The notes below the pieces were generated by a model. It was not told the DNA's origin. It worked only from the letters and a program-made list of their open reading frames with translations, and did not search any database. Positions 196 to 55,020 of a stretch of DNA of 64,000 nt are shown piece by piece. The position numbers were made by a program, and so were the translations under genes. How positions within the stretch are numbered: the first letter of the stretch is position 1; every line of letters begins with the position of its first letter. Source of the DNA: Arbacia lixula (lineage: Eukaryota; Echinodermata; Echinoidea; Arbacioida; Arbaciidae); assembly GCA_963669155.1 (NCBI GenBank), contig OZ022593.1, forward strand, positions 19,945,683 to 20,009,682. The letters run 5' to 3'.

Positions 196-3100
196 CTAAG
201 AAAGCAAGTTTCTTCTTTATGTCAATCTTTTCAGGCATCAGGCTGGCAGCATTGAAGATGAATTCTTTTCCACAAGCAAGCTTCACTTTGACATCTAGCC
301 CATCAACGTGAACAACCTTACCAACTTTTCCGATTGCCTTGGGATTAAAAGTCATTGTACAAAGAATTACAGAGAAAAATTATTACATCAATGTGAACAA
401 CTTTATCCCCATCCTTCCACTGGTCTTGGGAAGAGAATGAAAGATACAAAGACTCGAGTTACTGAGGCAGACATTTACATCTAGTGTATCAATGTAAAAA
501 CCCTCTCTGACCCTTCTGATGGCCTTGTGATAAACGTTCATGACACAAAGTATTTTTATGACATTTTGAGATATTTCATTTTTTATTTTTTATTCAAATT
601 TATTAAAATTTTATTAAAATACAGACTGAAATTTTGTGTGACTTCATACAGACTCTATGATGCTGGCTATATAGTTACAAGTGAGAGGTCAACTGTGGTC
701 AGATTACGGTTGCTTTCTCACATGTTTCATGTTGGTTGTCCACCCTCCGTGTCCAGTCTGCAACCTCTTGACCATCTGCACATCCTCACTCACGCGCACC
801 GGCTGACACAACACAAACCGATGAAGCTAGGCATGCATGCAACAGGCAGGAGATCAAAGTGGAAATATTAGATTGTCTTATCCTGGTAAGGCTTTGTGCA
901 AGGAGAAGTTCAACTCATGGAACGAGGAGGGGATAGATGTTAGACTTGCCGATTATTCCTGCAGAATGTCATGCGAGGTCCTAATCCCACCCACCCGGTC
1001 CCCGCCTGCTCCCTATGATACTCGAGGACTCTGGAATTTATTACAGACTTCTAAGGCCCATATGTAGCTTCTTGTGGTGATCACTGTGTTACTGCATCAC
1101 ACAATGCCAAAGTAGTCAAAAATGATGTAAATTTTTATCATCCTTAATGTTTGATTTGCTTGCGTTGTTTATGGTAATTACAGTACGACATCTCCAATTT
1201 TCATTGCAATATCAGTATGGGTAAAATGCAGTACTAGATTCAGAGATTGGCTTTAAATTGTGGCTGAACTGTTTATCCAGAAATATTGGGGTCGTATATA
1301 AGGGAAGCACTCATTATTCCGAAGGCTCGTTATTCCGAACGCTATGCGACAAATGCTCGGATTAACGGACCCTTTTTCGTTTTCGAACTAACGAGGTATA
1401 GGCAATTTACTTGTTTCGGAATGTCGAACCTTCGGAATATCGAACTGTAACCGTATATAATACCAGAATCATCAAATCGAAAGCACATACCCTCATCCTT
1501 ATCAATCTTAAATCATTGCCCTTCATCCTCCATCCTACATCCTAGATATTTACTTATGGGATGGGATAAACCAGGCAGCAATCCACTTGTCATAGTCGTA
1601 TCACAGTGCAATCAATGCTTAACCCAACATGCAACCCTCACAGACATGTATATCAAACATCTCAAAGCAATACTATTATTCCTCGGCTAGCCACCTCGTG
1701 ATAAAAGTATTGTTTTGAGATTCATTTATGCCTGTAGTTTTAACCCATGTACCTCTGATCAATCTCTTTTTGTATATCTTTGCCATGCAGTTTGTTTCTC
1801 CTGTTATGGCATCCTACAAACTAATTACTTTCACCACACTATTGCAGTGTACATTAGGACTGGTATACACCACCTTTCTCAGAGCGCAAGGGTGAACAGG
1901 ATGCACTCTCTCAGAACCTTTGAAGGTTACCACAAGGTCACCAAGATCAGTCTTTCCACTGACCACACCCTGTTTCCCAATAATCTGAAGAATAAGGAGA
2001 GAGCAACATAAACAAAACATTCTGATCGTACACAATAATGGGATAAAGTGTTCTCCATTAAATTATTATACACAATACGTTGATGAAATCAATGTAAAAT
2101 AACCATCATTGTTCATCGTCCGATTTACTTTCCTGAGGGAATATTTAGAAGGCAAGTCTCTAATCACAGAAAAAATATCAATGCAAGTTCTAAAGGTAGC
2201 AGGCGTATATATTCATAATGTCCAAGATCATCGACAAATGCACATGAACTTGTCCTATTACCACAATGATGAATCGGTTCCTGCCATATCTCCTTCAGGG
2301 AGAGGTATTACCCCCTGTATCCTTCGACCATTTATATATTTTGTGCAACTTTGGGTTCTCTTGAACTGAAATTGCTGCGCTAACGTAAAAAGGGCCAAAA
2401 CCTGTAGCTTAGAGGTGAGTTGTATAGCCACCTGCATTATGTACCTCTTCCATGTGCGGTTCCCAGAGGCCTCTGCGCGTTTGGAGTTTTTCCAGCTCTG
2501 TGACGGATGCTGATACCAACACTTTGTCACCGTCATTGATCGTTGGTTCGTAGCCTGTGAGTGTGGAGGGAAAAGATACCAGTAAACAATCTTAGTGTTT
2601 TCAAATTCTGAACTCCACCTTCCATAAAATTCATGTTTCAATTAAAATGTACACATGTGTGGGAAGTAGTGTGGTATAGTGGTGGCACTGGAGGTGATGT
2701 TGTGGTGGTGGTTGTGCGGTGGTGGCAGTTGTTGTGGTGGTGGTGTTGGTGTGGTGGAGGTGCCTGGTAGTATAGTGGTGGTGGTTGTGTGTTATGAGGA
2801 TGGTGGTGGTGGTAGCGGTGGTGTGGTGAGTTTTTGATGGTGTGTGGTGTGGAGATTGTTGCAGTGATGGTAGTGTGGTAGCGGTGTGGTGGTAGTCCTG
2901 TGATGGTAGTGATGGTTTGGTGATGGTATGGTGTCGGTGTGGTGTGGTGTTGTAACCTCATGTCTGCATGAAATTGTCCTTTCCTGATTTCTTTCTCTAG
3001 GCCGGCCTATTGCTTAAACATGTATTTATGTTTGAGACTATGTGGAGCTGCAAACAAAGCGACTGTTAAATACACCCATTGCGTGCTGTATTTTGAAATG

Positions 3101-6100
3101 TTAGTCCAGAGAATTAAACACAAATGTTAGCCTGCCCCTGTAAGGAAGGGGTCATAAACGGAGCTTGCACTACTTTGGTCAGCCTTCTGGGCAGACAGCC
3201 ACAAGGAGCTGGGGGCATATTTGCCCCTAACCCTATCCCTGCTGCTGTATCAGGAAATGTCAATTGCCACCAGTGGTAACCCATTCCCACACCTCCCACC
3301 CCCTGCCCTCGAATTCGAGCAGTGTGCTGAATTCTCACCAAGGACTGGCAAGTGGCCCTCGTACACGCAACCACCTGATGCAGGTACAATGCAGGCTATG
3401 GGAGCGTGTCCTGTCTCAGACAGCTGTCGCAGTGGACTGGTCTCTCCCTGAACCACTCTTGTCACTGTGTTCTGCCTGTGGCTGTCCTGACCTAGTCAGC
3501 GAGAAAGGAACATCATAGACAGGTATTAACATGGACACATGGACAAAATATATGTGAAGATTGCAACTATTCACGCCGAGCATCGCAAAGGCACACTAAA
3601 GTCCCCCAAAAGGAAGAATCATCAGAAGAGTAGTGAGAGGACTTAATACTTTTAATAGACTTTAAAATGCTCTTTTAAGGTAAATTTTTACAATCCCTTT
3701 CCATTTTTATTCCATTGTGATTATTTGGATGAGGTTTTGTAACTATTTCTGATTGTTTACCTTTCTTGAACCAAGCTGGAAAGTTGACGACCTTTGCTCC
3801 TGAGAAGATTCCATGAATTAGTCGGAAAGGAGAGATACGCCTTGGGTGCATCTTTGGACTGCAGCAGAAACAATAAGAAAACAACAAGGCACCAGATCTA
3901 ATCCATAGATGTTCTCTTATACCCTTCCCCTTGGACCTACCCCATAGATATTCTCTACTGTCCTTTCGCTTCGACGTATCCCATAGATGTTCTCTGCTTC
4001 CCTTCTCTTGAACCAACCACATAGATGTTCTCCACTATCATTTCTCTTGGACTTTCCACATAGATGTACTCTACTACCCTTTCTCTTGGACCTACCACAT
4101 AGATGTTCTCTATTAGCCTTTCTCTTGGACCTACCACGTAGATGTTCTCTATTAGCCTTTCTCTTGGAACTCCTTCATATATGTTCTATACTACCATTTC
4201 TCTTGGACCTTTCCCATAGATATTCTCTACTACCCTTTCTCTTGGATTTACCACATAGAGGTTCTCTGCTCTCCTCACTCTTTGACCTACTACATAGGTA
4301 TACTCTATTATGCTTTCTCTTGGACCTACCACATATATATTCTCTACTACCCTTTCTCTTGAACCTATCCCATAGATGTTCTTTACTACCTTTTCTCTTG
4401 AACCTACCACATAGATGTTGTCTATTAGCCATTCTCTTGGACCTACCACACAGATGTTCTCTACTAACCCTTCTCTTGGACCTAACACATAGATGTTCTC
4501 TATCAGCCTTTCTCTCCGCCTCCTTCATAGATGTTCTCTGCTATCATTTCTCTTCGGCCTACCACATAGATGTTCTCTACAACCCTTTCTCTTGGACCTA
4601 CCACATAGATATTCTCTACTACCATTTCTCTTGAACCTATCCCATATATGTTCTATACTACCATTTCTCTTGGACCTACCACAAAGATGTTCTCTATTAG
4701 CCTTTCTCTTTGAACTCCTTCATATATGTTCTATACTACCATTTCTCTTGGACCTACCACAAAGATGTTCTCTACTACCTTTTCTCTTGGACCTACCACA
4801 TAGAGTTTCTCTGCTCTCCTCACTCTTTGACCTACTATATAGGTATACTCTATTACGCTTTTTCTTGCACCTACCACATAGATATTCTCTATTACCCTTT
4901 CTCTTGAACCTATCCCATAGATGTTCTTTACTACCCTTTCTCTTGGACCTAACACATTGATGTTCTCTATTACCCTTTCTCTTGGTCCTACCACATAAAT
5001 GTTCTCTAATACCCATTCTCTTGGACCAATCCCATAGATGTTCTCTACTTCCCTTTTTCTTGGACTTACCCCATAGAGGTTTTCTGCTCTCCTTTCTCTT
5101 GGACCTATCCTATAGATGTTCTCTAATACCCATTCTCTTGGACCTAACACATAGATGTTCTCTATTACCCTTTCTCTTGGTCCTACCACATAAATGTTCT
5201 CTATTACCAATTCTCTTGGACCTTTCCCATAGATGTTCTCTACTATCCTTTCTCTTGGACCTCCCACATCGATGTTCTCTAGGGTATTACCCTTTTTCTT
5301 GGACCTACCACATAGATGTTCTCTAATACCCATTCTCTTGGACCAATCCCATACATGTTCTCTACTTCCCTTTTTCTTGGACTTACCCCATAGAGGTTTT
5401 CTGCTCTCCTTTCTCTTGGACCTATTATATAGATATTCTCTAAGTACCCTTTCTCTTGGACTTACCACATATATATTCTCTACTATACTCTTTCTCTTGA
5501 ACCTACCCTATAGAGGTTCTCTGCTCTCCTTACTCTTAGACCTATACCTATATGTTCTCTACTATCCTTTCCCTTTTTTCGTTAGGACCTACCCCATAGC
5601 GGTTCTCTGCTCTCCTTTCTCTTGGACGTATCCCATAGATATTCTTTACTACTCTTTCTCTTGGACCTACCACAAAGATGTTCTTTACGACCCTTTCTCT
5701 TGAACCTACCCTATAGAGGTCCTCTACTCTCCTTACTCTTGGACGTACCACATAGTAGTTTCCTATTACCCTTTCTCTTGGACCTACCACATGGATGTTC
5801 TGTACTACCCATTCTCTTGGACCGATCCCATAGATGTTCTGTACTCCCCTTTCCCTTAGACTTACCCCATAGAGATTCTCTACTCTCCTTTCTCTTGGAC
5901 CTATCCTATAGATGTTCTTTAGTACCCTTTCTCTTGGACCTACCCCATAGATATTCTCTATTACCCTTTTTTCTGGACCTATCCCATAGATGTTCTGTAC
6001 TACCCATTCTCTTGGACTGATCCTATAGATGTTCTCTAGTCCCCTTTCTCTTGGACCTACCACATAGATGTTCTCTATTAGCCTTTCTCTTGGAACTCCT

Positions 6101-8689
6101 TCATATATGTTCTCTCCTACCCTTTCTCTTGGACCTACCACATAGAGGTTCTCTGCTCTCCTCACTCTTTGACCTACTACATAGGTATACTCTATTATGC
6201 TATCTCTTGGACCTACCACATATATATTCTCTACTACCCTTCTCTTGGACCTAACACGTAGATGTTCTCTATCAGCCTTTCTCTTGGAACTCCTTCATAT
6301 ATGTTCTATACTACCATTTCTCTTGGACCTTTCCCATAGATATTCTCTACTATCCTTTCTCTTGGAACTACCACATAGAGGTTCTCTGCTCTCTTCACTC
6401 TTTGACCTACTACATAGGTATACTCTATTACGCTTTATCTTGGACCTACCACATAGATATTCTCAATTAAACTTTCTCTTGAACTTATCCCATAGATGTT
6501 CTGTGCTACCCTTTCTCTTGGACCTACCACATAGATGCTCTCCACTATCATTTCTTTTGGACTTTCCACGTAGATGTTCTCTACTACCCTTTCTCTTGGA
6601 TCGATCCCATAGATGTTCTCTACTCCCCTTTTTCTTGGACTTACCCCATAGAGGTTTTCTACTCTCCTTTCTCTTGGACCTATCCTATAGATGTTCTTTG
6701 CTACCCTTTCTCTTGGACCTTTCCCATAGATGTTCTCTACTATCCTTTCTCTTGGACTTCCCACATAGATGTTCTCTAGGGTATTACCGTTTTTCCTGGA
6801 CCTACCACATAGATGTTCTCTAATACCCATTCTCTTGGACAAATCCCATAGATGTTCTCTACTCCCCTTTTCCTTGGACTTACCCCATAGAGGTTTTCTA
6901 CTCTCCTTTCTCTTCGACCTATCCTATAGATATTCTCTAGTACCCTTTCTCTTGGACCTACCACATATATATTCTCTACTATACCCTTTCTCTTGAACCT
7001 ATCCCATAGACGTTCTCTACTATCCTTGCCCGTGGACCTACCCTATAGAGGTTCTCTGCCCTCCTTACTCGTAGACCTATACATAGAATACATACATGTT
7101 CTCTACTATCCTTTCCCTTTTTTCGTTTGGACCTACCCCATAGCGGTTATCTACTCTCCTTTCTCTTGGTCCTACCACATAGATGTTCTCTACTACCCAT
7201 TCTCTTGGATCGATCCCATAGATGTTCTCTACTCCCCTTTTTCTTGGACTTACCCCATAGAGGTCTTCTACTCTCCTTTCTCTTGGACCTATCCTATAGA
7301 TGTTCTCTACCATTTCTCTTGGACCTACCCCATAGAGGTTCTCTACTCTCCTTACTCTTGTACCTACCACATATATATTCTCTATTACTCTTTTTCTTGG
7401 ACCTATCCCATACATGTTTTCTACTCTCCTTACTCTTGTACCTACCACATATATATTCTCTATTACCCTTTTTCCTGGACCCATCCGATAGATGTTCTCT
7501 ACTACCCTATCTCTTGGACCCTTTCTCTTGTACCTACCACAGATATTCTCTATTACCCCTTTTCTTTGACTTATTCCATAGAGGTTTTCTACTCTACCTA
7601 CTCTTGGACCTACCACATAGATATTCTCTATTACCCTTTTTCCTGGACCTACTTCATATATGTTCTATATTACTTCTTATATTCAACCTACCCCATAGCT
7701 GCCCTCTCCTTCTCTTTATCTTGGAATCACCCCATTGATGTTCTGTACTGAATTTTATCTTGGACCTACCCCATAGATGTTAATGCTGAACTTTCAACCC
7801 TCATGAAGACATGGTGGACATCATGTTTGTTATTCATGTAGCAGTCTGTACAGAGGTCAATGGCTGTACATTCTGTGCATCTCCATCGGATCCCCGCAAT
7901 CTCATCCTTATCGCAACCATCGCACCAGATTTTGACATGCAGCACCCCTTCATGAGTAAGGAATTTTGAGAAGCAGAATAATTATATTTCTACATTATAG
8001 AATTAAACGATTGTGCTATAAAAGTACAAACCCACAGCAAACCATGAATTCCATTGCTCTAATTCAAATATGACAGTTATCTTGAGTAATTCATGGCCGT
8101 TGGCGTTTTTTAGCGGAACCTCTGGCTGGTGTACACCAAAATTGAGTTGTTTGCCTGTTTGGCAGCATGTGCACACTTAGTATTCCGCAAGTTAATCTAC
8201 AGTATCTCATAACAGGTCGACCCATAAGTAGAGACAAAAGTTTGTATATGACCAATGACTGATGCGATCCTTCACAGATTTAATTCCAGAGATTATCAGC
8301 TTAATCATTTTAGTTCCATGATTGATATTGAGGTAGCAAATTTGGTGTAAATATGTGCGGTATAAACTTCATTTGATTGCAAAAATTGTTTCGTAATACA
8401 TCAAGCACTGCAAATTTCTTGACGATATTCATATTTGAAAAGGGGATGAATGGAAGGCCATTGTACCTGATTCTGCACTACTAAGGATTCGGAGGTCGTA
8501 GGTGTTGTCGTATCCAGTGCGGTAGAGGCCCTTCCCGCCATTATCCCACTGCACCATGACAGTACGATCAGGAGGACGAGGGTGTGGACCCTTGACCAAG
8601 CTGATCACGGTACCCACATGACCCCGGCCCCCATCTTGGTTCTTGTAGGCCCAGTCAGGGCCCCGGATGACCAGAAGCCCAACTTCCAT
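196..8689 (-). CDS. MIB2-like: MIB2-like E3 ubiquitin ligase family, copy A (partial, exons 1-9)
   Basis: This is the N-terminal half of a Mind-bomb-2-like protein; the ankyrin and RING part lies off the left edge. Exons, high to low: 8689-8467 (MIB/HERC2), 7947-7770 (ZZ), 3858-3761 and 3491-3339 (second MIB/HERC2 region), 2554-2445, 1984-1874, 1541-1491 (tentative), 802-722, 337-196 (MIB repeats). All are bounded by AG/GT and phases agree throughout. Start codon is the ATG at 8689, which has an A at -3 and opens the MIB/HERC2 domain directly. Compared with copies B and C, exon 9 lacks 15 bases (five codons, in frame). The ZZ ligands are intact. MIB proteins act in the cytoplasm and at membranes on Notch ligands and signalling adaptors; that role is family knowledge, not shown here. 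No disabling mutation was seen in the visible exons. Confidence 0.88.
1301..1450. repeat. Palindromic TTCGTTATTCCGAA-type repeat, intron 7, copy A
   Basis: About 150 bases with repeated direct and inverted TTCCGAA / TTCGGAA motifs around a GAGGTATAGGCAATTTAC centre. Lies 40 bases from candidate exon 7. Confidence 0.7.
2657..2950. repeat. GTG-rich low-complexity tract, intron 4, copy A
   Basis: Irregular GTGGTGGTGAT repeats. Equivalents are 24980-25330 (B) and 49870-50145 (C), each with a different arrangement. Confidence 0.85.
3903..7790. repeat. 39-bp minisatellite filling intron 2, copy A
   Basis: About 100 monomers of 39 bases. On the gene strand each reads roughly AACATCTATGTGGTAGGTCC followed by AAGAGAAAGGGTAGTAGAG. 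The array's last monomer at its high end is the exon 2 donor itself. Sub-variants recur in blocks, for example at 4261, 4811, 6148 and 6390, which suggests higher-order repeats. Because 39 is a multiple of 3, long artificial open frames arise on both strands. Confidence 0.95.
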
Positions 8690-8880
8690 GTTTCTCTGTA
8701 AGCAGCCGGGCCTATGAGAAGAAAGAGATATTAAACGGATTGATTGATAGATAAGTTGAAAATACAAATGATAGGTACATAAGTGACAAAGCAGGTGACC
8801 AACATCCATTTGTCTGTCAGCAGCCCTGAGGGGAAAGGTATCAAAAGAGGCATGGAAAGATGAGCTGATGATACATATGA
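8690..8880. repeat. Exon 1-start repeat upstream of copy A
   Basis: A second, degenerate copy of the acceptor-ATG region lies near 8808 (reads MDVGHLLCH on the minus strand) above the true start (MEVGLL at 8689). Confidence 0.55.
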
Positions 8881-15356: not shown

Positions 15357-15400
15357 GGTCTAACTTGCGATTTTACAAAATTGTTCCGAGGGCAATAGAA

Positions 15401-15830
15401 TGCTGCATTCCTAATGAGGGACGTCTTTCATGCTGCTCATTGGCTGATGTCAGAAATCGAGGACACTCAGAGATCAGCTTAGCAATGCTGCATTCCTAAT
15501 GAGTGACGCCTTTCGTGCTGCTGATTGGCTGGTGTCAGAGATCGAGGACACTCAGAGATCAGCTTAGCAATGCTGCATTCCTAATGAGGGACGTCTTTCA
15601 TGCTGCTGATTGGCTGGTGACAGAGATCGAGGACACTCAGGGATCAGCTTAGCAATTCTGCATTCCTAATGAGTGACGTCTTTTGTGCTGCTGATTGGCT
15701 GGTGTCAGAGATCGAGGACACTCAGGGATCAGCTTAGCAATGCTGCATTCCTAATGAGGGACGTCTTTCGAGCTGCTGATTGGCTGGTGACAGAGAGGAC
15801 ATTCAGAAGTTAGCTCAGCAATGGTGCAGT
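15401..15830. repeat. 85-bp tandem array at the 3' end of copy B (5 units)
   Basis: Monomers start at 15401, 15486, 15571, 15656 and 15741, an exact 85-base step. The last one overlaps exon 18 and encodes the final RING half and stop. The other four are 3' flank or UTR copies that still read CSIAKLIPECP in the same frame after the stop. Confidence 0.93.
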
Positions 15831-24900: not shown

Positions 24901-27900
24901 CCAGTAAACAATCTTAGTGTTTTCAAATTCTGAACTCCACCTTCCATACAATCAGGTTTCAATTAAAATGTACACATGTGTGGGAACTAGTGTGGAAGTG
25001 GTGGCACTAGAGGTGATGGTGTGGTGGTGGTTGTGGACCTGTGGTGGTCGTGTGGTGGTGGAGGTTGTTGTTGTTGTGGTGATGGTGGTGGTGTGGTGGA
25101 GATGCATGGTAGTATAGTGGTGGTGGTGTGTTATGAGGATGGTGGTGGTAGCGGTGGTGTTTTTTTTATGGTTTGGAGTGGAAATGTTTGTGGTGGTAGT
25201 GTGCGCATATGGTGGTGGTGGTGGTGGTAGTGGTGGTGGTGGTGATGGTAGTGTGGTAGTGGTGTGGTGGTAGTCCTGTGATGGTAGTGATAGTTTGGTG
25301 ATTGTATGGTGTCGGTGTGGTGGGGTGTTGTAACCTCATGTCTGCATGAAATTTTCCTTTCCTGATTTCTTTCTCTAGGCCGGCCTATTGCTTAAACATG
25401 TATTTATGTTTGAGACTATGTGGAGCTGCCCACACAAAGTGGTGTGCACCCATTGCGTGCTGTGTTTTGGAATGTTATTCCAGAGAATTAAACACAAACG
25501 TTGGCCTGCCCCTGTAAGGAAGGGGTCATAAACAGAGCTTGCACTACTTTGGTCATCCTTCTGGGCAGACATCCACAAGGAGGCGGCATATTTGCCCCTA
25601 ATCCTATCCCTCGCCTTGCCGATATATCAGAAAATGTCAATTGCCACCAGTGGTAACCCATGCCCCCACCTCCCATCCCCTGCCCTCGAATTCGAACAGT
25701 GTGCTGAATTCTTACCAAGGACTGGCAAGTGGCCCTCGTACACGCAACCACCTAATGCAGGTACAATGCAGGCTATGGGAACGTGTCCTGTCTCAGACAG
25801 CTGTCGCAGTGAACTGGTCTCTCCCTGAACCACTTCTGTCACTGTGTTCTGCCTGTGGCTGTCCTGGCCTAGTCAGCGAGAAAGGAACATCATAGACAGG
25901 TATTAACATGGACACATGGACAAAATATATGTGACGATTGCAACTATTCACGCCGAGCATCGCAAAGGCACAATAAAGCCAAAAAAAAAAAAGGAAAAAT
26001 CAGCAGAAGAGTAGTGAGAGGACTTTTTATATTTTTGATAGACTTTAAAATGCTCTTTTAAGGTAAATTTTTACAACCCCTTTCCACTTTTATTCCATTG
26101 TGATTATTTCGATGAGGTTTTGTAACTATTTCTGATTGTTTACCTTTCTTGAACCAAGCTGGAAAGTTGACGACCTTTGCTCCTGAGAAGATTCCATGAA
26201 TTTGTCGGAAAGGAGAGATACGCCTTGGGTGCATCTTTGGACTGCAGCAGAAAAAATAAGAAAACAACAAGGCACCAGATCTAATCCATAGATATTCTCT
26301 TATACCCTTCCCCTTGGACCTACCCCATAGATATTCTCTACTGCCCTTTCGCTTGGACGTATCCCATAGATGTTCTCTGCTTCCCTTCTCTTGAACCAAC
26401 CTCATATATGTTCTCTACTATTCTTTCTCTTGGACCTACCACATAGATGTTCTCCACTATCATTTCTCTTGGACTTTCCACGTAGATGTTCTCTACTACC
26501 CTTTCCCTTGGACCTACCACATAAATTCTCTCTACTACCCTTTCTCTTGGACCTATCCTATAGATGTTCTCTAGTCCCCTTTCTCTTGGACCTACCACAT
26601 AGATGTTCTCTATTAGCCTTTCTCTTGGAACTCCTTCATACATGTTCTATACTACCATTTCTCTTGGATCTTTCCCATAGATATTCTCTACTACCCTATC
26701 TCTTGGTTCTACCACATAGAGGTTTTCTGCTCTCCTCACTCTTTGACCTACTACATAGGTATACTCTATTACGCTTTCTCTTGGACCTACCACATATATA
26801 TTCTCTACTACCCTTTCTCTTGAACCTATCCCATAGATGTTCTTTACTACCTTTTCTCTTGAACCTACCACATAGATGTTCTCTATTAGCCTTTCTCTTG
26901 GACCTAGCACATAGATGTTCTCTACTAACGCTTCTCTTGGACCTAACACATAGATGTTCTCTATCAGCCTTTCTCTCCGCCTCCTTCATAGATGTTCTCT
27001 GCTATCATTTCTCTTGGGCCTACCACATAGATGCTCTCTACTACCCTTTCTCTTGGACCTTTCCCATAGATGCTTTCTACAACCCTTTCTCTTGGACCTA
27101 CCACCTAGAGGTTCTCTGCTCTCCTCACTCTTGGACCTACCACATAGGTATACTCTATTACGCTTCCTCTTGGACCTACCACATAGATATTCTCTACTAC
27201 ACTTTCTCTTGAACCTATCCCATAGATGTTCTTTACTACCCTTTCTCTTGGACCTACCACATAGATGTTCTCTATTATCCTTTCTCTTGGAACTCCTTCA
27301 TATATGTTCTATACTACCCTTTCTCTTGGACCTATCCTATAGATATTCTCTAGTCCCCTTTCTCTTGGACCTACCTCATAGATATTCTCTATGAGCCTTT
27401 CTCTTGGAACTCCTTCATACATGTTCTATACTACCCTTTCTCTTGGACCTATCCTATAGATGTTCTCTAGTCCCCTTTCTCTTGGACCTACCACATAGAT
27501 GTTCTCTATTAGCCTTTCTTTTGGACCTACCACATAGATTTTCTTTATAAGCCTTTCTCTTGGAACTCCTTCATATATGTTCTATACTACCATTTCTCTT
27601 GGACCTACCACAAAGATGTTATAGAGGTTCTCTGCTCTCCTCACTCTTTGACCTACTACATAGGTATACTCTATTACGCTTTCTCTTGGACCTACCACAT
27701 TTATATTCTCTACTACCCTCTCTCTTGAACCTATCCCATAGATGTTCTTTACTACCTTTTTTCTTGAACCTACCACATAGATGTTCTCTATTACCAATTC
27801 TCTTGGACAGATTCCATAGATGTTCTCTACTATCCTTTCTCTTGGACCTCCCACATCGATGTTCTCTAGGGTATTACCCTTTTTCTTGGACCTACCACAT

Positions 27901-30328
27901 AGATGTTCTCTATTACCCTTTCTCTTGGACCTACCACATAGATGTTCTCTATTACCAATTCTCTTGGACGGATTCCATAGATGTTCTCTACTATCCTTTC
28001 TCTTGGACCTCCCACATCGATGTTCTCTAGGGTATTACCCTTTTTCTTGGACCTACCACATAGATGTTCTCTAATACCCATTCTCTTGGACCAATCCCAT
28101 AAATGTTCTCTCCTCCCCTTTTTCTTGGACTTACCCCATAGAGGTTTTCTGCTCTTCTTTCTCTTGGACCTATCCTATAGATATTCTCTTAGTACCCTTT
28201 CTCTTGGACCTACCACATATATATTCTCTACTATACCCTTTCTCTTGAACCTATCCCATAGATGTTCTCTACTATCCTTGCCCTTGGACCTACCCTATAG
28301 AGGTTCTCTGCTCTCCTTACTCTTAGACCTATACATAGATGTTCTCTATTATCCTTTCCCTTTTTTTCGTTTGGACCTACCCCATAGCGGTTCTCTGCTC
28401 TCCTTTCTCTTGGACGTATCCCATAGATATTCTTTACTACTCTTTCTCTTGGACCTATCACATAGATCTTCTGTACTCCCCTTTCCCTTGGACTTACCCC
28501 ATAGAGGTTCTCTACTCTCCTTTCTCTTGGACCTATCCTATAGATGTTCTCTATTACTCCTTTTTCTGGACCTATCCTATAGATGTTCTGTACTACCCAT
28601 TCTCTTGGACCGATTCTATAGACGTTCTGTGCTCCCCCTTTCCTTGGACTTACCCAATATAGGTTCTCTACTTTCCTTTCTCTTGGACCTATCCTATAGA
28701 TGTTCTCTAGTCCCCTTTCTCTTGGACCTACCTCATAGATGTTCTCTATTAGCCTTTCTCTTTGAACTCCTTCATATATGTTCTATACTACCATTTCTCT
28801 TGGACCTAGCACAAAGATGTTCTCTACTACCTTTTCTCTTGGACCTACCACATAGAGGTTCTCTGCTCTCCTCACTCTTTGACCTACTACATAGGTATAC
28901 TCTATTACGCTTTCTCTTGGACCTACCACATAGATGTTCTCTACTACCCATTCTCTTGGACCGATCCCATAGATGTTCTCTACTCCCCTTTTTCCTGGAC
29001 TTACCCCATACATGTTTTCTACTCTACCTACTCTTGGACCTACCACAGATATTCTCTATTACCCTTTCTCCTGGACCCATCCGATAGATGTTCTCTACTA
29101 CCCTATCTCTTGGACCCTTTCTCTTGGATCTACCCCTTGAACCTACCCCTTTCTCTTGGAACTACCACATATATATTCTCTATTACCCCTTTTCTTGGAC
29201 TTATTCCATAGAGGTTTTCTACTCTATACCTACTCTTGGACCTACCACATAGATATTCTCTATTACCCTTTTTCCTGGACCTACTTCATATATGTTCTAT
29301 ATTACTTCTTATATTCAACCTACCCCATAGCTGCCCTCTCCTTCTCTTTATCTAGGAATCACCCCATTGATGTTCTGTACTGAATTTTATCTTGGACCTA
29401 CCCCATAGATGTTAATGCTGAACTTTCAACCCTCATGAAGACATGGTGGACATCATGTTTGTTATTCATGTAGCAGTCTGTACAGAGGTCAATGGCTGTA
29501 CATTCTGTGCATCTCCATCGGATCCCTGCAATCTCATTCTTATCGCAACCATCGCACCAGATTTTGACATGCAGCACCCCTGCATGAGTAAGGAATTTTG
29601 AGAAGCAGAATAATTATATTTCTACATTATAGAATTAAACGATTGTGCTATAAAAGTACAAACCCACAGCAAACCATGAATTCCATTGCTCTAATTTAAT
29701 TATGACAGTTATCTTGAGTAATTCATGGCCGTTTTACCTTTGGCGTTTTTTAGCGGAACCTCTGGCTGGTGTACACCAAAATTGAGTTGTTTGCCTGTTT
29801 GCCAGCATGTGCACACTTAGTATTCCACAAGTTAATCTACAGTATCCCATAACTGGTCAACCCATAAGTAGAGACAAAAGTTTGTATATGACCAATGACT
29901 GATGCGATCCTTCACAGATTTAATTCCAGAGATTATCAGCTTAATCATTTTAGTTCCATGATTGATATTGAGGTAGCAAGTTTGGTGAAATATGTGCGGT
30001 AGAAACTTCATTTGATTGCAAAAATTGTTTCGTAATACATCAAGCACTACAAATTTCTTGACGATATTCATATTTGAAAAGGGGATGAATGGAAGGCCAT
30101 TGTACCTGATTCTGCACTACTAAGGATTCGGAGGTCGTAGGTGTTGTCGTATCCAGTGCGGTAGAGGCCCTTCCCGCCATTATCCCACTGCACCATGACA
30201 GTACGATCAGGAGGACGAGGGTGTGGACCCTTGACCAAGCTGATCACGGTACCCACATGACCCCGGCCCCCATCTTGGTTCTTGTAGGCCCAGTCAGGGC
30301 CCCGGATGACCAGAAGCCCAACTTCCAT
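15751..30328 (-). CDS. MIB2-like: MIB2-like E3 ubiquitin ligase family, copy B (complete, 18 coding exons)
   Basis: Complete copy, about 999 residues after splicing. Approximate domains: MIB/HERC2 1-75, ZZ finger 76-133, diverged second MIB/HERC2 region 134-218, two MIB repeats 219-387, ankyrin repeats about 400-745, basic then acidic linker 760-931, partial RING 932-999. Each exon is listed separately. Exon phases match at all 17 junctions, which is strong support for the model. Start is the ATG at 30328 just downstream of a likely splice acceptor, so a non-coding first exon is likely. The gene lies head-to-tail with copies A and C. Odd points: intron 2 is a 39-bp minisatellite, the RING lacks its first cysteine pair, and the second MIB/HERC2 domain has lost its usual core. 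It could be an active adaptor or scaffold rather than an E3 enzyme (inference). A diverged MIB1 is the alternative family assignment, but MIB2 fits better by length and by the ZZ-to-second-domain spacing. Confidence 0.92.
16179..16693 (-). CDS. MIB2-like: Copy B exon 17: disordered linker before the RING
   Basis: 515 bases, 171 full codons, open throughout. Gly/Ser/Pro/Lys-rich stretch (SKKGSKKGSKEKEK), Ala-rich patch, then an acidic segment (RRMQLEDEDPG) and a second basic stretch (AAKNKQSKKR). No folded domain recognised; it probably spans ankyrin and RING regions. Equivalent in C: 39289-38775. Confidence 0.88.
17282..17463 (-). CDS. MIB2-like: Copy B exon 16: last ankyrin repeats
   Basis: 182 bases. 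DALVAYLVTHGASLDVPDY is ankyrin-like and leads into a helix (LPALTEIEKRL). Acceptor CTCACACAG. Equivalent in C: 40059-39878. Confidence 0.9.
17520..17870. repeat. GGATTAGAAGGTAGAGA-type repeat, intron 15, copy B
   Basis: Degenerate purine-rich repeat of about 40-50 bases just upstream (gene sense) of exon 16. Equivalent in C: 40080-40480. Confidence 0.7.
18394..18612 (-). CDS. MIB2-like: Copy B exon 15: ankyrin repeats
   Basis: 219 bases, exactly 73 codons. Includes HTAVSEGVINDNMDIVEILV and GATCDTPNDWGYSTLRIA, two ankyrin repeats. Acceptor TTTTACAG, donor GTAAAA. Equivalent in C: 41244-41026. Confidence 0.92.
19082..19208 (-). CDS. MIB2-like: Copy B exon 14: ankyrin repeat
   Basis: 127 bases. 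VSVLIEKCPRLVEARCWEGY followed by TPLMSAA is a clear ankyrin unit. The acceptor is TTGCGTAG in B and TTTCATAG in C (41840-41714). Confidence 0.88.
19708..19860. repeat. Palindromic TTCCGAA-type repeat, intron 13, copy B
   Basis: A second member of the same family, 35 bases from the exon 13 donor. It shares the GGGGAAGCACTC start and AACTGTA end. Confidence 0.7.
19895..20061 (-). CDS. MIB2-like: Copy B exon 13: ankyrin repeat
   Basis: 167 bases in B and 170 in C (42675-42506), an in-frame one-codon difference. FTPMMNAASR fits an ankyrin TPLMxAA start, followed by AMFDLLMGGSADLKAVNT. Donors are GTGAGT (B) and GTAAGT (C). Confidence 0.85.
20080..20459. repeat. Intron 12 minisatellite, copy B (short allele)
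   Basis: Degenerate repeat of about 40-55 bases with the core GATACAAGCCCTGGTTCC and CATAGTCCACAGTC. It abuts the exon 12 donor at 20459. Confidence 0.75.
20460..20616 (-). CDS. MIB2-like: Copy B exon 12: ankyrin repeats
   Basis: 157 bases, 52 full codons. Clear ankyrin consensus: SIVELLLNYGADVGAVSPTG, then GHKECARHLLQHGADVNLK. The donor GTAGGAG is where the intron 12 minisatellite begins. Equivalent in C: 45473-45317. Confidence 0.92.
21175..21329 (-). CDS. MIB2-like: Copy B exon 11: ankyrin repeats
   Basis: 155 bases ending at a strong GTAAGT donor. Contains NNVEMVHLFLERGAF and EGYSSLYIATL, both ankyrin-like. The early GT at the GAGG|GTTATT position was rejected because only the later donor keeps phase 2. 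Equivalent in C: 46196-46042 (His to Arg in the first helix). Confidence 0.86.
21791..21900 (-). CDS. MIB2-like: Copy B exon 10: entry to the ankyrin region
   Basis: 110 bases, acceptor TTTCTATCCCAG, donor GTAAGC. Encodes AYLQMTLNPKTDFYDATLER and then a helix ending VHPEW, typical of the segment before ankyrin repeats. Equivalent in C: 46766-46657, with one Thr to Ile change. Confidence 0.85.
22499..22655 (-). CDS. MIB2-like: Copy B exon 9: second MIB repeat, part 2
   Basis: 157 bases. AIGKVGKVVHVDGLDVKV matches the MIB-repeat second half. Phase 0 in, phase 1 out. Copy A (337-196) is 15 bases shorter, losing EKRVP near the end; copy C is 47521-47365. A decayed duplicate of this exon sits 177 bases upstream (see separate entry). 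Confidence 0.9.
22705..22832 (-). pseudogene. Decayed upstream duplicate of exon 9
   Basis: Lies between exons 8 and 9. It reads AIRRVREGFYIDTLDVNV behind a conserved acceptor (TTATCACAAG), beside exon 9's AIGKVGKVVHVDGLDVKV. The conserved Gly residues of the MIB repeat are lost. No clear donor was found, so it is probably a relic, though a mutually exclusive exon is possible. Equivalents start at 523 (copy A) and 47707 (copy C). In B the spacing to exon 9 is 177 bases, a multiple of 3, so one open frame runs through both. Confidence 0.6.
23031..23111 (-). CDS. MIB2-like: Copy B exon 8: second MIB repeat, part 1
   Basis: 81 bases, 27 codons: VRVSEDVEMVKRLQTGHGGW, the hallmark KRLQxGHGxW of MIB repeats. 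Acceptor TTGTGTCAG, donor GTGAGA. Equivalents: 802-722 (A) and 47987-47907 (C). Confidence 0.9.
23617..23766. repeat. Palindromic TTCCGAA-type repeat, intron 7, copy B
   Basis: Orthologue of 1301-1450. Confidence 0.7.
23807..23857 (-). CDS. MIB2-like: Copy B exon 7: tentative 51-bp micro-exon
   Basis: Needed to bridge the two MIB repeats. A 51-base reading (17 codons, containing GNDLRLLRMR) keeps phase 0 on both sides, and a 30-base version from a nearer AG is also possible. Donor is GTATGT. The acceptor's pyrimidine tract is weak. In this frame one A/B difference is silent and another is Leu/Ile. Equivalents: 1541-1491 (A) and 48729-48679 (C). Confidence 0.42.
24205..24315 (-). CDS. MIB2-like: Copy B exon 6: first MIB repeat, part 2
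   Basis: 111 bases, exactly 37 codons. IIGKQGVVSGKTDLGDLVV followed by HPCALRK matches the second half of a MIB repeat (IGxxGxV...DLxV...HPxAL.K). Acceptor is a pyrimidine-rich CTTATTCTTCAG. Equivalents: 1984-1874 (A) and 49182-49072 (C). Confidence 0.9.
24767..24876 (-). CDS. MIB2-like: Copy B exon 5: first MIB repeat, part 1
   Basis: 110 bases, 36 full codons. Shows the MIB-repeat pattern of a GDKV turn, a hydrophobic strand, then LEKLQxxxGxWxPxM. Phase 1 in, phase 0 out. Equivalents: 2554-2445 (A) and 49761-49652 (C). Confidence 0.88.
24980..25330. repeat. GTG-rich low-complexity tract, intron 4, copy B
   Basis: Same class as 2657-2950; any open frame here is composition-driven. Confidence 0.85.
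25716..25868 (-). CDS. MIB2-like: Copy B exon 4: diverged second MIB/HERC2 domain remainder
   Basis: 153 bases, phase 1 at both ends, 50 residues. Begins GQDSHRQ and ends CVYEGHLPVLG. The tail resembles the conserved segment ending HLPxLG that follows the second MIB/HERC2 domain in MIB proteins, as I recall the family. The core of the domain is hardly recognisable. Donor is GTAAGA in B and GTGAGA in A and C. Equivalents: 3491-3339 (A) and 50618-50466 (C). Confidence 0.72.
26144..26241 (-). CDS. MIB2-like: Copy B exon 3: start of second MIB/HERC2 region
   Basis: 98 bases after a good acceptor (TTCTGCTGCAG). Encodes 32 residues ending in HGIFSGAKVV then NFPAWFKK. The GIFxGAKVV motif is the usual opening of the second MIB/HERC2 domain, but the expected RGPDW-W-QDGG core is replaced. 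Equivalents: 3858-3761 (A) and 50992-50895 (C). Confidence 0.88.
26287..29422. repeat. 39-bp minisatellite filling intron 2, copy B
   Basis: About 80 monomers of the same family. Variant order matches copy C more closely than copy A, for example the duplicated AGGGTATTACC junctions near 27869 and 28030. Confidence 0.95.
29402..29579 (-). CDS. MIB2-like: Copy B exon 2: ZZ zinc finger
   Basis: 178 bases, phase 1 in and phase 2 out. Contains the zinc ligands CDGC, CTEC and CTDC followed by a His pair (HDVHH), so the ZZ finger looks intact. Equivalents: 7947-7770 (A) and 54270-54093 (C). The exon ends ...TSM then GG, and the donor reads ATGGG|GTAGGTCC. This donor is the sequence repeated through intron 2. 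Confidence 0.92.
30106..30328 (-). CDS. MIB2-like: Copy B exon 1: first MIB/HERC2 domain
   Basis: Residues 1-74 plus one base (phase 1). Shows the family signature: RGPDW, then QDGG, GHVGTV, VQWDNG, YRTG and YDLRIL. The donor reads CAG|GTACA. Equivalent exons are 8689-8467 (copy A) and 55020-54798 (copy C), each 223 bases. The domain in MIB proteins binds substrate (Notch ligand tails), by family knowledge. Confidence 0.92.
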
Positions 30329-37867: not shown

Positions 37868-37911
37868 GGTCTAACTTGCGATTTTACAAAATTGTTCCGA
37901 GGGCAATAGAA

Positions 37912-38426
37912 TGCTGCATTCCTAATGAGGGACGTCTTTCATGCTGCTGATTGGCTGGTGTCGGAAATCGAGGACACTCAGAAATCAGCTTAGCAATGCT
38001 GCATTCCTAATGAGGGACGTCTTTCGTGCTGCTGATTGGCTGGTGTTAAAGATCAAGGACACTCAGGGATCAGCTTAGCAATGCTGCATTCCTAATGAGG
38101 GACGTCTTTCGTGCTGCTGATTGGCTGGTGACAGAGATCGAGGACACTCAGGGATCAGCTTAGCAATGCTGCATTCCTAATGAGTGACGCCTTTCGTGCT
38201 GCTGATTGGCTGGTGTTAGAGATCGAGGACACTCAGGGATCAGCTTAGCAATGCTGCATTCCTAATGAGTGACGCCTTTCGTGCTGCTGATTGGCTGGTG
38301 TTAGAGATCGAGGACACTCAGAGATCAGCTTAGCAATGCTGCATCCCTAATGAGGGACGTCTTTCGAGCTGCTGATTGGCTGGTGACAGAGAGGGCATTC
38401 AGAGGTCAGCTCAGCAAGAGTGCAGT
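37912..38426. repeat. 85-bp tandem array at the 3' end of copy C (6 units)
   Basis: Monomers start at 37912, 37997, 38082, 38167, 38252 and 38337. One more unit than in copy B; the coding one is again the unit nearest the gene. Confidence 0.93.
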
Positions 38427-50400: not shown

Positions 50401-53400
50401 TGGTAACCCATTCCCACACCTCCCACCCCCTGCCCTCGAATTCGAGCAGTGTGCTGAATTCTCACCAAGGACTGGCAAGTGGCCCTCGTACACGCAACCA
50501 CCTGATGCAGGTACAATGCAGGCTATGGGAACGTGTCCTGTCTCAGACAGCTGTCGCAGTGAACTGGTCTCTCCCTGAACCACTTCTGTCACTGTGTTCT
50601 GCCTGTGGCTGTCCTGACCTAGTCAGCGAGAAAGGAACATCATAGACAGGTATTAACATGGACACATGAACAAAATATATGTGACGATTGCAACTATTCA
50701 CGCCGAGCATCGCAAAGGCACAATAAATCCAAAAAAAAAAAAAGGAAGAATCATCAGAAGAGTAGTGAGAAGACTTTTTATATTTTTGATAGACTTTAAA
50801 ATGCTCTTTTAAGGTAAATTTTTACAACCCCTTTCCACTTTTATTCCATTGTGATTATTTCGATGAGGTTTTGTAACTATTTCTGATTGTTTACCTTTCT
50901 TGAACCAAGCTGGAAAGTTGACGACCTTTGCTCCTGAGAAGATTCCATGAATTTGTCGGAAAGGAGAGATACGCCTTGGGTGCATCTTTGGACTGCAGCA
51001 GAAAAAATAAGAAAACAACAAGGCACCAGATCTAATCCATAGATATTCTCTTATACCCTTCCCCTTGGACCTACCCCATAGATATTCTCTACTGTCCTTT
51101 CGCTTGGACGTATCCCATAGATGTTCTCTGCTTCCCTTCTCTTGAACCAACCTCATATATGTTCTCTACTATTCTTTCTCTTGGACCTACCACATAGATG
51201 TTCTCCACTATTATTTCTCTTGGACTTTCCACGTAGATGTTCTCTACTACCCTTTCCCTTGGACCTACCACATAAATTCTCTCTACTACCCTTTCTCTTG
51301 GACCTATCCTATAGATGTTCTCTAGTCCCATTTCTCTTGGACCTACCACATAGATGTTCTCTATTAGCCTTTCTCTTGGAACTCCTTCATACATGTTCTA
51401 TACTACCAATTCTCTTGGACCTTTCCCATAGATATTCTCTACTACCCTATCTCTTGGACCTACCACATAGAGGTTTTCTGCTCTCCTCACTCTTTGACCT
51501 ACTACATAGGTATACTCTTTTACGCTTTCTCTTGGACCTACCACATATATATTCTCTACTACCCTTTCTCTTGAACCTATCCCATAGATGTTCTTTACTA
51601 ACTTTTCTCTTGAACCTACCACATAGATGTTCTCTATTAGCCTTTCTCTTGGACCTAGCACATAGATGTTCTCTACTAACGCTTCTCTTGGACCTAACAC
51701 ATAGATGTTCTCTATCAGCCTTTCTCTCCGCCTCCTTCATAGATGTTCTCTGCTATCATTTATCTTGGGCCTACCACATAGATGTTCTCTACTACCCTTT
51801 CTCTTGGACCTTTCCCATAGATGCTTTCTACAACCCTTTCTCTTGGACCTACCACATAGAGGTTCTCTGCTCTCCTCACTCTTGGACCTACCACATAGGT
51901 ATACTCTATTACGCTTCCTCTTGGACCTACCACATAGATATTCTCTACTACACTTTCTCTTGAACCTATCCCATAGATGTTCTTTACTACCCTTTCTCTT
52001 GGACCTACCATACAGATGTTCTCTATTATCCTTTCTCTTGGAACTCCTTCATATATGTTCTATACTACCCTTTCTCTTGGACCTATCCTATAGATGTTCT
52101 CTAGTCCCCTTTCTCTTGGACCTACCTCATAGATGTTCTCTATTAGCCTTTCTCTTGGAACTCCTTCATACATGTTCTATACTACCCTTTCTCTTGGACC
52201 TATCCTACAGATGTTCTCTAGTCCCCTTTCTCTTGGACCTACCACATAGATGTTCTCTATTAGCCTTTCTTTTGGACCTACCACATAGATTTTCTTTATT
52301 ACCCTTTCTCTTGGAACTCCTTCATATATGTTCTATACTACCATTTCTCTTGGACCTACCACAAAGATGTTCTCTCCTACCCTTTCTCGTGGACCTACCA
52401 CATAGAGGTTCTCTGCTCCCCTCACTCTTTGACCTACTACATAGGTATACTCTATTACGCTTTCTCTTGGACCTACCACATATATATTCTCTACTACCCT
52501 TTCTCTTGAACCTATCCCATAGATGTTCTTTACTACCTTTTTTCTTGAACCTACCACATAGATGTTCTCTATTACCAATTCTCTTGGACAGATTCCATAG
52601 ATGTTCTCTACTATCCTTTCTCTTGGACCTCCCACATCGATGTTCTCTAGGGTATTACCCTTTTTCTTGGACCTACCACATAGATGTTCTCTAATACCCA
52701 TTCTCTTGGACCAATCCCATAAATGTTCTCTCCTCCCCTTTTTCTTGGACTTACCCCATAGAGGTTTTCTGCTCTTCTTTCTCTTGGACCTATCCTATAG
52801 ATATTCTCTTAGTACCCTTTCTCTTGGACCTACCACATATATATTCTCTACTATACCCTTTCTCTTGAACATATCCCATATATGTTCTCTACTATCCTTG
52901 CCCTTGGACCTACCCTATAGAGGTTCTCTGCTCTCCTTACTCTTAGACCTATACATAGATGTTCTCTATTATCCTTTCCCTTTTTTTCGTTTAGACCTAC
53001 CCCATAGCGGTTCTCTGCTCTCCTTTCTCTTGGACGTATCCCATAGATATTCTTTACTACTCTTTCTCTTGGACCGATCCCATAGATGTTCTGTACTCCC
53101 CTTTCCCTTGGACTTACCCCATAGAGGTTCTCTACTCTCCTTTCTCTTGGACCTATCCTATAGATGTTCTCTATTACCCCTTTTTCTGGACCTATCCTAT
53201 AGATGTTCTGTACGACCCATTCTCTTGGACCGATTCTATAGACGTTCTGTACTCCCCCTTTCCTTGGACTTACCCAATATAGGTTCTCTACTTTCCTTTC
53301 TCTTGGACCTATCCTATAGATGTTCTCTAGTCCCCTTTCTCTTGGACCTACCTCATAGATGTTCTCTATTAGCCTTTCTCTTTGAACTCCTTCATATATG

Positions 53401-55020
53401 TTCTATACTACCATTTCTCTTGGACCTAGCACAAAGATGTTCTCTACTACCTTTTCTCTTGGACCTACCACATAGAGGTTCTCTGCTCTCCTCACTCTTT
53501 GACCGATCCCACAGATGTTCTCTACTCCCCTTTTTCTTGGACTTACCCCATAGAGGTTTTCTACTCTCCTTTCTCTTGGACCTATCCTATAGATGTTCTC
53601 TACCATTTCTCTTGGACCTACCCCATAGAGGTTCTCTACCTCTCCTTACTCTTGTACCTATCACATATATATTCTCTATTGCTCTTTTTCTTGGACCTAT
53701 CCCATCCATGTTTTCTACTCTACCTACTCTTGGACCTACCACAGATATTCTCTATTAACCTTTCTCCTGGACCCATCCGATAGATGTTCTCTACTACCCT
53801 ATCTCTTGGACCCTTTCTCTTGGATCTACCCCTTGAACCTACCCCTTTCTCTTGGAACTACCACATATATATTCTCTATTACCCCTTTTCTTGGACTTAT
53901 TCCATAGAGGTTTTCTACTCTATACCTACTCTTGGACCTACCACATAGATATTCTCTATTACCCTTTTTCCTGGACCTACTTCATATATGTTCTATATTA
54001 CTTCTTCAACCTACCCCATAGCTGCCCTCTCCTTCTCTTTATCTAGGAATCACCCCATTGATGTTCTGTACTGAATTTTATCTTGGACCTACCCCATAGA
54101 TGTTAATGCTGAACTTTCAACCCTCATGAAGACATGGTGGACATCATGTTTGTTATTCATGTAGCAGTCTGTACAGAGGTCAATGGCTGTACATTCTGTG
54201 CATCTCCATCGGATCCCTGCAATCTCATTCTTATCGCAACCATCGCACCAGATTTTGACATGCAGCACCCCTGCATGAGTAAGGAATTTTGAGAAGCAGA
54301 ATAATTATATTTCTACATTATAGAATTAAACGATTGTGCTATAAAAGTACAAACCTACAGCAAACCATGAATTCCATTGCTCTAATTTAATTATGGCAGT
54401 TATCTTGAGTAATTCATGGCCGTTTTACCTTTGGCGTTTTTTAGCGGAACCTCTGGCTGGTGTACACCAAAATTGAGTTGTTTGCCTGTTTGCCAGCATG
54501 TGCACACTTAGTATTCCACATGTTAATCTACAGTATCTCATAACTGGTCGACCCATAAGTAGAGACAAAAGTTTGTATATGACCAATGACTGATGCGATC
54601 CTTCACAGATTGAATTCCAGAGATTATCAGCTTAATCATTTTAGTTCCATGATTGATATTGAGGTAGCAAGTTTGGTGTAAATATGTGCGGTAGAAACTT
54701 CATTTGATTGCAAAAATTGTTTCGTAATACATCAAGCACTGCAAATTTCTTGACGATATTCATATTTGAAAAGGGGATGAATGGAAGGCCATTGTACCTG
54801 ATTCTGCACTACTAAGGATTCGGAGGTCGTAGGTGTTGTCGTGTCCAGTGCGGTAGAGGCCCTTCCCCCCGTCATCCCACTCCACCATGACAGTACGATC
54901 AGGAGGACGAGGGTGTGGACCCTTGACCAAGCTGATCACGGTACCCACATGACCCCGGCCCCCATCTTGGTTCTTGTAGGCCCAGTCAGGGCCCCGGATG
55001 ACCAGAAGCCCAACTTCCAT
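38347..55020 (-). CDS. MIB2-like: MIB2-like E3 ubiquitin ligase family, copy C (complete, 18 coding exons)
   Basis: Complete tandem paralogue of copy B, about 1000 residues. Exons, high to low: 55020-54798, 54270-54093, 50992-50895, 50618-50466, 49761-49652, 49182-49072, 48729-48679 (tentative), 47987-47907, 47521-47365, 46766-46657, 46196-46042, 45473-45317, 42675-42506, 41840-41714, 41244-41026, 40059-39878, 39289-38775, 38552-38347. Splice sites and phases equal those of B. Exon 13 has one extra codon (Cys) relative to B. Exon 1 differs from A and B at three residues inside the MIB/HERC2 domain (Q to E, N to D, Y to H). Intron 12 is enlarged by a fold-back transposon with a nested piggyBac-type MITE, and by a longer minisatellite. 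All exons read open, so I see no evidence of pseudogenisation. The RING is partial, as in B. Confidence 0.92.
40080..40480. repeat. GGATTAGAAGGTAGAGA-type repeat, intron 15, copy C
   Basis: Orthologous to 17520-17870. Confidence 0.7.
42323..42475. repeat. Palindromic TTCCGAA-type repeat, intron 13, copy C
   Basis: Orthologue of 19708-19860. Confidence 0.7.
42703..44220. mobile_element. Fold-back insertion in intron 12 of copy C (b plus a-inverted form)
   Basis: Same family as 33167-34482 but with one b and one inverted a arm. Copy B has no such sequence at the matching place (20080). It contains a nested piggyBac-type MITE at 42761-43568. The inner palindrome is at 43573-43642. Confidence 0.8.
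42761..43568. mobile_element. piggyBac-type MITE with TTAA target duplication
   Basis: 808 bases flanked by TTAA at 42757-42760 and 43569-43572. Ends read CCCTACATAGCCCGGG and, inverted, CCCTAACTAGCCCGGG. Inside each end is a long G or C run and an inverted GGCAAAAACAGCCCC motif. No open frame for a transposase. The CCC-start ends plus TTAA are diagnostic of piggyBac elements. Confidence 0.85.
44222..45316. repeat. Intron 12 minisatellite, copy C (expanded)
   Basis: Same family as the copy B array but about 1.1 kb long. One monomer at about 44881-44910 keeps a degenerate image of the exon 12 end plus donor. Confidence 0.8.
48488..48640. repeat. Palindromic TTCCGAA-type repeat, intron 7, copy C
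   Basis: Orthologue of 1301-1450. Confidence 0.7.
49870..50145. repeat. GTG-rich low-complexity tract, intron 4, copy C
   Basis: Same class. About 65 bases that follow it in copies A and B (around 2950-3030 in A) are deleted. Confidence 0.85.
51037..54113. repeat. 39-bp minisatellite filling intron 2, copy C
   Basis: About 79 monomers, reaching from about 45 bases past the exon 3 acceptor to the exon 2 donor. Confidence 0.95.

Follow-up and report, generated by a model that had tools for sequence, protein, structure and literature searches.

How does an intron come to be filled with copies of its own 5' splice site, and which of these copies would the splicing machinery use? The question is raised by a stretch of 64,000 nucleotides from the sea urchin Arbacia lixula (assembly GCA_963669155.1, contig OZ022593.1, positions 19,945,683 to 20,009,682), here called the window, in which a MIB2-like gene is found three times in tandem on the minus strand. 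Exon 1 starts near 8.7, 30.3 and 55.0 kb in copies A, B and C respectively, the copies are joined by long blocks at 95-97% identity, and copy A is cut off by the window start. A first-pass annotation of this DNA had described a 39-bp minisatellite in intron 2 that appeared to have grown from the exon 2 donor. The present analysis indicates that the array is probably a minisatellite of the kind called mirages in amphioxus, seeded at the exon 2/intron 2 junction and tolerated there, with exon 2 being spliced from the first donor.

The minisatellite itself is confirmed. Tandem Repeats Finder (TRF) places 39-bp arrays at 3904-7520, 26287-29413 and 51037-54104, one in intron 2 of each copy. Segmentation from the donor onward gives the unit numbers listed in Table 1, with a partial final unit in each copy. 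The array begins at the first base of the intron in all three copies, and what is left of intron 2 consists of about 55-70 bp ahead of the acceptor and of insertions of 1-17 bases in some units. The unit has the consensus GTAGGTCCAAGAGAAAGGGTAGTAGAGAACATCTATGTG and the arrays are 69-70% purine. A 22-base pattern taken from the junction, ACATCTATGNGGTAGGTCCAAG, has 188 matches in the window when up to three mismatches are allowed, falling 76, 57 and 55 in arrays A, B and C, while 100 shuffled sequences gave a mean of 0.00 and a largest count of 0.

The likeness between units and junction extends into the exon. When full units are compared (97, 78 and 77, the partial ones being dropped), their ends match the last 12 bases of exon 2, AACATCTATGGG, with a mean identity of 84-85%, and the match is exact in 12/97, 6/78 and 5/77 units. 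Outside the arrays none of 107,460 12-mers agrees with the end of the exon at 11 or all 12 positions. The tandem units are homologous across the exon-intron boundary, as in mirages, the exon part being secure over 12 nt. The true donor forms the first unit of the array, as had been annotated. That this likeness is due to chance hardly needs to be entertained, considering the empty shuffles, the absence of comparable 12-mers in the background and the exact register in three copies.

The junction reads ACATCTATGGG/GTAGGTCCAAG ... CTGCTGCAG/TCCAAAG, where slashes mark the splice sites; the intron opens with GTAGGT and the codons across the join give TSMG/PKM. The linker across the join was aligned in 32 of 34 proteins, leaving out P0033 and P0034 (both Strongylocentrotus purpuratus), which have no ZZ motif. 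All ten echinoid proteins with a ZZ motif have the same linker length as the genes in the window and no 13-residue insert. The linker residues are TSMGPKM in P0001-P0003, TSVGPKM in P0004 and TSKGIKM or TSKGVKV in P0005-P0008, and two Diadema proteins have SSMGEKV and SSIGEKV. Because the echinoid proteins align straight across the join with equal linker length, the exon 2 donor has very likely been placed correctly in the first-pass annotation, and the exon is the likelier source of the repeat.

The direction of growth follows from the same proteins with less certainty. The array might have existed first, within the intron, and exon 2 might later have adopted a donor from its first unit. Such a donor shift into the repeat would leave an identical footprint, with 12 shared bases and units in register, and compared with 19 of 22 non-echinoid proteins the linker in echinoids has two extra residues (P0014-P0016 have other, larger gaps), so the protein has changed here once. 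However, S. purpuratus, Lytechinus and Diadema share the linker length of the window genes with similar residues, and the echinoid proteins lack any insertion by 13 residues or multiples of 13, which speaks against an exon grown into an older array. The shift would also have to predate the split of these three lineages, which are known here from proteins only. It is therefore regarded as unlikely, and growth from the junction is favoured over the reverse; this part of the first-pass annotation is strengthened and not proven, since the comparison is made at the protein level.

The splice signal is found in many, though not all, units. An in-register GT is found in 55/98, 42/79 and 40/78 units of A, B and C, and GTAGGT or GTAAGT in 46, 37 and 36; both sets of counts take in the true donor as well as the incomplete final unit. 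With the true donor included, the 22-mer ACATCTATGNGGTAGGTCCAAG is exact at 4, 10 and 7 places. The statement that nearly every monomer carries the donor sequence is thus too strong, as GT in register is found in about half of the units. The donor core ATGGGGTAGGTCC is indeed present at the places given as examples (low coordinates 3933, 5585, 5936, 7129, 7321 and 26316), and it has 12 sites in the window, the three true donors among them. Donor strength was scored with a weight matrix of human frequencies and with the energy of the duplex with the U1 5' end; the scores are relative only. With the score of the true donor, 6.97, as threshold, 41, 34 and 34 of the 321, 254 and 249 intron GTs score at least as high by the weight matrix, and 19, 11 and 12 by U1 energy, the true donor being counted in each case. 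In the DNA beyond the arrays, 2.2% of 6105 GTs equal or exceed the true donor in score, or 1.23/kb of strand.

The density of donor-like sites in copy A, about 10.5/kb (41 sites in 3.9 kb, the true one counted), raises the possibility that the decoys are maintained as a device for regulation, be it a splice buffer, as had been proposed, a switch toward a short MIB-ZZ isoform, or a U1 platform that protects the transcript or retains it in the nucleus. The array is present in all three paralogues and a stop codon follows exon 2 immediately, as would suit such a device. Conservation does not agree with it. Among 243 of the 255 units (the first three per copy and the partial last ones being dropped), column +1 has G in 62% of cases and A in 34%, which makes it the fourth most variable of the 39 columns. 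The donor window ranks 27th of 39 when six columns are taken and 33rd when nine are taken, rank 1 being the most conserved. Single donor columns (+3, +5 and +6) are kept at 91-97%, and many non-donor columns likewise.

Substitutions give the same picture. They were counted in 69/75, 50/68 and 49/70 paired units for B-C, A-B and A-C respectively (at least 35/39 identical, the partial unit dropped). Per site, donor columns and the rest of the unit differ by 0.0145 vs 0.0121 in B-C, 0.0556 vs 0.0353 in A-B and 0.0590 vs 0.0408 in A-C (Fisher p 0.68, 0.07 and 0.12), so donor columns change as fast as, or faster than, other columns. These rates, from the better-matching pairs, are of the same order as in the flanks (0.013-0.021 over the region from exon 1 through exon 2, 0.040-0.069 after exon 3). 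The GT status differs in 5/50 A-B and 7/49 A-C paired units, and wherever it does, copy A has the GT and the other copy lacks it, as loose drift would allow; a weak tendency toward decoy loss is possible. There is no sign of upkeep of the donor columns, and a maintained device, including the buffer, appears improbable.

Use of a decoy would have consequences for the protein. Read-through from exon 2 continues with GGG TAG in all three copies, so each decoy used, or the intron retained, would end the protein after MIB-ZZ, in agreement with the first-pass annotation. Acceptor-like sites, defined as YAG with at least 12 pyrimidines in the preceding 18 bases, are absent from the arrays (0/207, 0/177 and 0/169); at most 10, 11 and 9 pyrimidines precede a YAG in the arrays, against 14, 15 and 15 at the real acceptors. 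The decoys could therefore extend exon 2 and could hardly create new exons. Recursive splicing and pseudoexons were rejected for the same lack of acceptor-like sites, as judged by this simple pyrimidine test. AATAAA occurs 0, 0 and 1 times in the arrays, so there is little need for the array as a guard against premature polyadenylation. Another conceivable role is that of a U1-binding platform, where the 33-40 donor-like sites per intron (weight matrix), kept in all three paralogues, would tune the output of full-length MIB2-like ligase against a short MIB-ZZ product or a nonsense-decayed message. This is improbable; if true, the array length would be a heritable dial.

From these observations we infer how the array arose by mutation, which donor is chosen and what becomes of mis-spliced RNA. 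A 39-bp segment over the exon 2/intron 2 junction, including at least the last 12 exon bases and the first intron bases, would have been duplicated in tandem, and unequal exchange or slippage would then have enlarged the array into the intron. The enlargement may predate the triplication of the MIB2-like gene, or it may have happened at a time when sequence was still being exchanged among the copies. Being the donor in use and following codons, the first donor would be barred from drifting, while the units beyond it would be free to do so. The first donor would be chosen most likely as it closes exon 2, which has 178 nt and its own acceptor, and the others would be passed over. The donors further down are surrounded by purine-rich DNA that has no acceptor-like sites, and they cannot define exons of their own. 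Occasional decoy use or retention of the intron would lead to the TAG and to a truncated product, or to an mRNA exposed to nonsense-mediated decay. At the exon 2 edge, units 2 and 3 show the greatest divergence, alone or in a tie (27-28/39 to the consensus), with unit 1 at 31 and an interior mean of 33.6-33.8.

Several results weigh against a tolerated array seeded at the junction. Without the true donor, 40, 33 and 33 decoys are as strong as it by the weight matrix and 18, 10 and 11 by U1 energy; both sets of counts fall well below the 80-100 decoys that had been claimed. Concealment of the decoys by RNA structure is unsupported, as the true donor is no more open than they are (predicted unpaired probability 0.41, 0.45 and 0.47, vs decoy means of 0.47, 0.50 and 0.50 over 46, 39 and 38 sites). 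With decoys as strong and a true donor no more accessible, proximity or exon definition would have to do the work. The units are about 76-79% alike on average, and a search for higher-order repeat structure found a flat identity of 0.76-0.79 over lags 1-30. At the exon 3 edge the last five full units match the consensus at 31-38/39, near the interior mean and not clearly more diverged. Because of this modest likeness and the far edge near the interior, the signature of a homogenised interior is weak. Finally, exon homology is secure for 12 bases and not significant further upstream: for the best extension, that of unit 1, p is 0.086 when shuffles serve as the reference and 0.109 when sites in the window do, and the consensus and units 2-6 give no signal. 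A unit made of 27 exon and 12 intron bases looks neat by eye and was rejected, having failed both global alignment and anchored extension, for which 0.086 was the best p.

The first-pass annotation knew of no described case of this kind. Canestro et al. (2002) are said to have described mirage minisatellites in amphioxus, and Turri, Cuin and Porter (1995) reportedly described a minisatellite with multiple splice donors in human IFI6 (6-16); the latter is said to be located at the end of exon 2, which fits a passage on exons two and three. Amphioxus mirages are reported as exon-intron boundaries duplicated in tandem in the manner of minisatellites. Their units measure 10-72 bp at Adh3 and about 150-160 bp in two globin genes, many units hold splice signals, and regular splicing is reported to be undisturbed (PMC3087553). 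A second report adds TnC and PGBD5 (PMC3902484), and the loci named are Adh3, the globins BflGb6 and BflGb9, TnC and PGBD5 (PMC3087553, PMC3902484). In IFI6, two downstream minisatellite units serve as donors and give three mRNAs (PMC4526556). Since both systems have been described, the claim of novelty was wrong.

The amphioxus mirages resemble the MIB2-like array in being tandem repeats over an exon-intron boundary with copies of splice signals in many units. The unit range at Adh3 takes in 39 bp. The divergence at the cluster edges of an amphioxus mirage resembles the low values of units 2 and 3 at the exon 2 edge, with no clear counterpart at the exon 3 edge. The differences are in size, side and gene: the BflGb6 mirage has 6 and 3 units in two haplotypes at an acceptor-side boundary, whereas 78-98 units are found here on the donor side of a MIB2-like gene, in an array common to three tandem paralogues. 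IFI6 is similar in that minisatellite units provide splice donors in one transcript. Its downstream donors are used, however, whereas read-through in the MIB2-like gene opens with an in-frame TAG and downstream use would truncate the protein; the immediate TAG makes productive use of several donors, as in IFI6, unlikely. Related events are described in PMC2812944 and PMC4974935. Tandem duplication across a boundary likewise copies splice signals, the difference being that here no new intron or exon arises and the array lies within one existing intron. A search of the literature on sea urchin intron minisatellites and splicing found no such array by title, which is not proof of absence, and MIB2 was not searched. 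The MIB2-like array is apparently a further, large member of a described kind, in another phylum.

The identity of the gene is based on its conceptual exons, in which MIB_HERC2 (PF06701), ZZ (PF00569), Mind bomb SH3 (PF18346) and five Ank families were matched; the ZZ match was obtained with the joined exon 1-3 protein in the letters of copy B. A Pfam search with the last-exon piece gave no match, and the RING was read by eye only, from CGH...ECPLC. A first protein search with exons 1-3 gave a single match among 17 candidates, a MIB2-like protein of Lytechinus pictus at 61% identity. A wider search gave 33 matches among 1123 candidates, headed by nine Strongylocentrotus, Lytechinus and Diadema proteins, followed by brachiopod, fish and crinoid MIB2, with two further S. 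purpuratus proteins last. Boundaries in the gene models are approximate except for exon 2 and the start of exon 3.

Table 1. Positions in the window of exon 2, intron 2 and exon 3 of the MIB2-like copies
Feature	Positions	Strand	Basis
Exon 2, copy A; ZZ domain; ends ...ACATCTATGGG (TSMG)	7770..7947	-	Protein alignment; PF00569 (joined exons 1-3, copy B letters)
Twelve end bases of exon 2, AACATCTATGGG, recurring at the end of the repeat unit	7770..7781	-	Comparison with background 12-mers
Intron 2, copy A; 3911 bp; 98 units (last partial) and about 55-70 bp before the acceptor	3859..7769	-	TRF, unit segmentation
Exon 3, copy A; starts PKMHPRR...	3761..3858	-	Start aligned; 3' end putative, from AAAG/GTAAAC
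Exon 2, copy B	29402..29579	-	Exon comparison between copies
Intron 2, copy B; 3160 bp; 79 units (last partial)	26242..29401	-	Unit segmentation
Exon 2, copy C	54093..54270	-	Exon comparison between copies
Intron 2, copy C; 3100 bp; 78 units (last partial)	50993..54092	-	Unit segmentation

Exon 2 is identical in copies B and C and differs at 2 positions in copy A. Its acceptor reads ATGAAG in copy A (7948-7953) vs ATGCAG in B (29580-29585) and C (54271-54276), a change that could weaken exon 2 in copy A. The distances between the paralogues depend on the region: over exons 1-2 (7770-8701 and counterparts) copy A is closer to B (0.014) than to C (0.021), and after exon 3 (3026-3760 and counterparts) it is closer to C (0.040) than to B (0.069), as if by gene conversion.

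Other repeats were found in the same genes. On the minus strand an 85-bp minisatellite follows the stop codon of the last exon, with 4 full units in copy B (15399-15738) and 5 in copy C (37910-38334). The last exon ends ...SECPLCHQPISSSKDVPH plus the stop, and the 85-bp units resemble this RING-like coding end, stop included, as judged by eye and without a score. The first unit seems to be pinned by coding sequence, with the others lying in non-coding DNA. This arrangement fits the view of such repeats as passengers: a boundary tolerates duplications on its non-coding side. A 51-bp array is present in copy C (44272-45105, TRF score 353), TRF lists none at the corresponding place in copy B, near 20 kb, and the matching part of copy A falls outside the window. 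Upstream of exon 1 of copy C, at 55271-57225, CCAGTAGAAA and CTACTGGTTTC repeats are interleaved in a complex manner and partly inverted.

The arrays in A. lixula apparently extend the amphioxus phenomenon to an echinoid genome, with a copy number far above that of the globin mirages. Three paralogues with different arrays beside a nearly identical exon constitute a natural test of how one donor is chosen among dozens, and the test has a built-in read-out because a wrong choice of donor would meet a stop codon at once.

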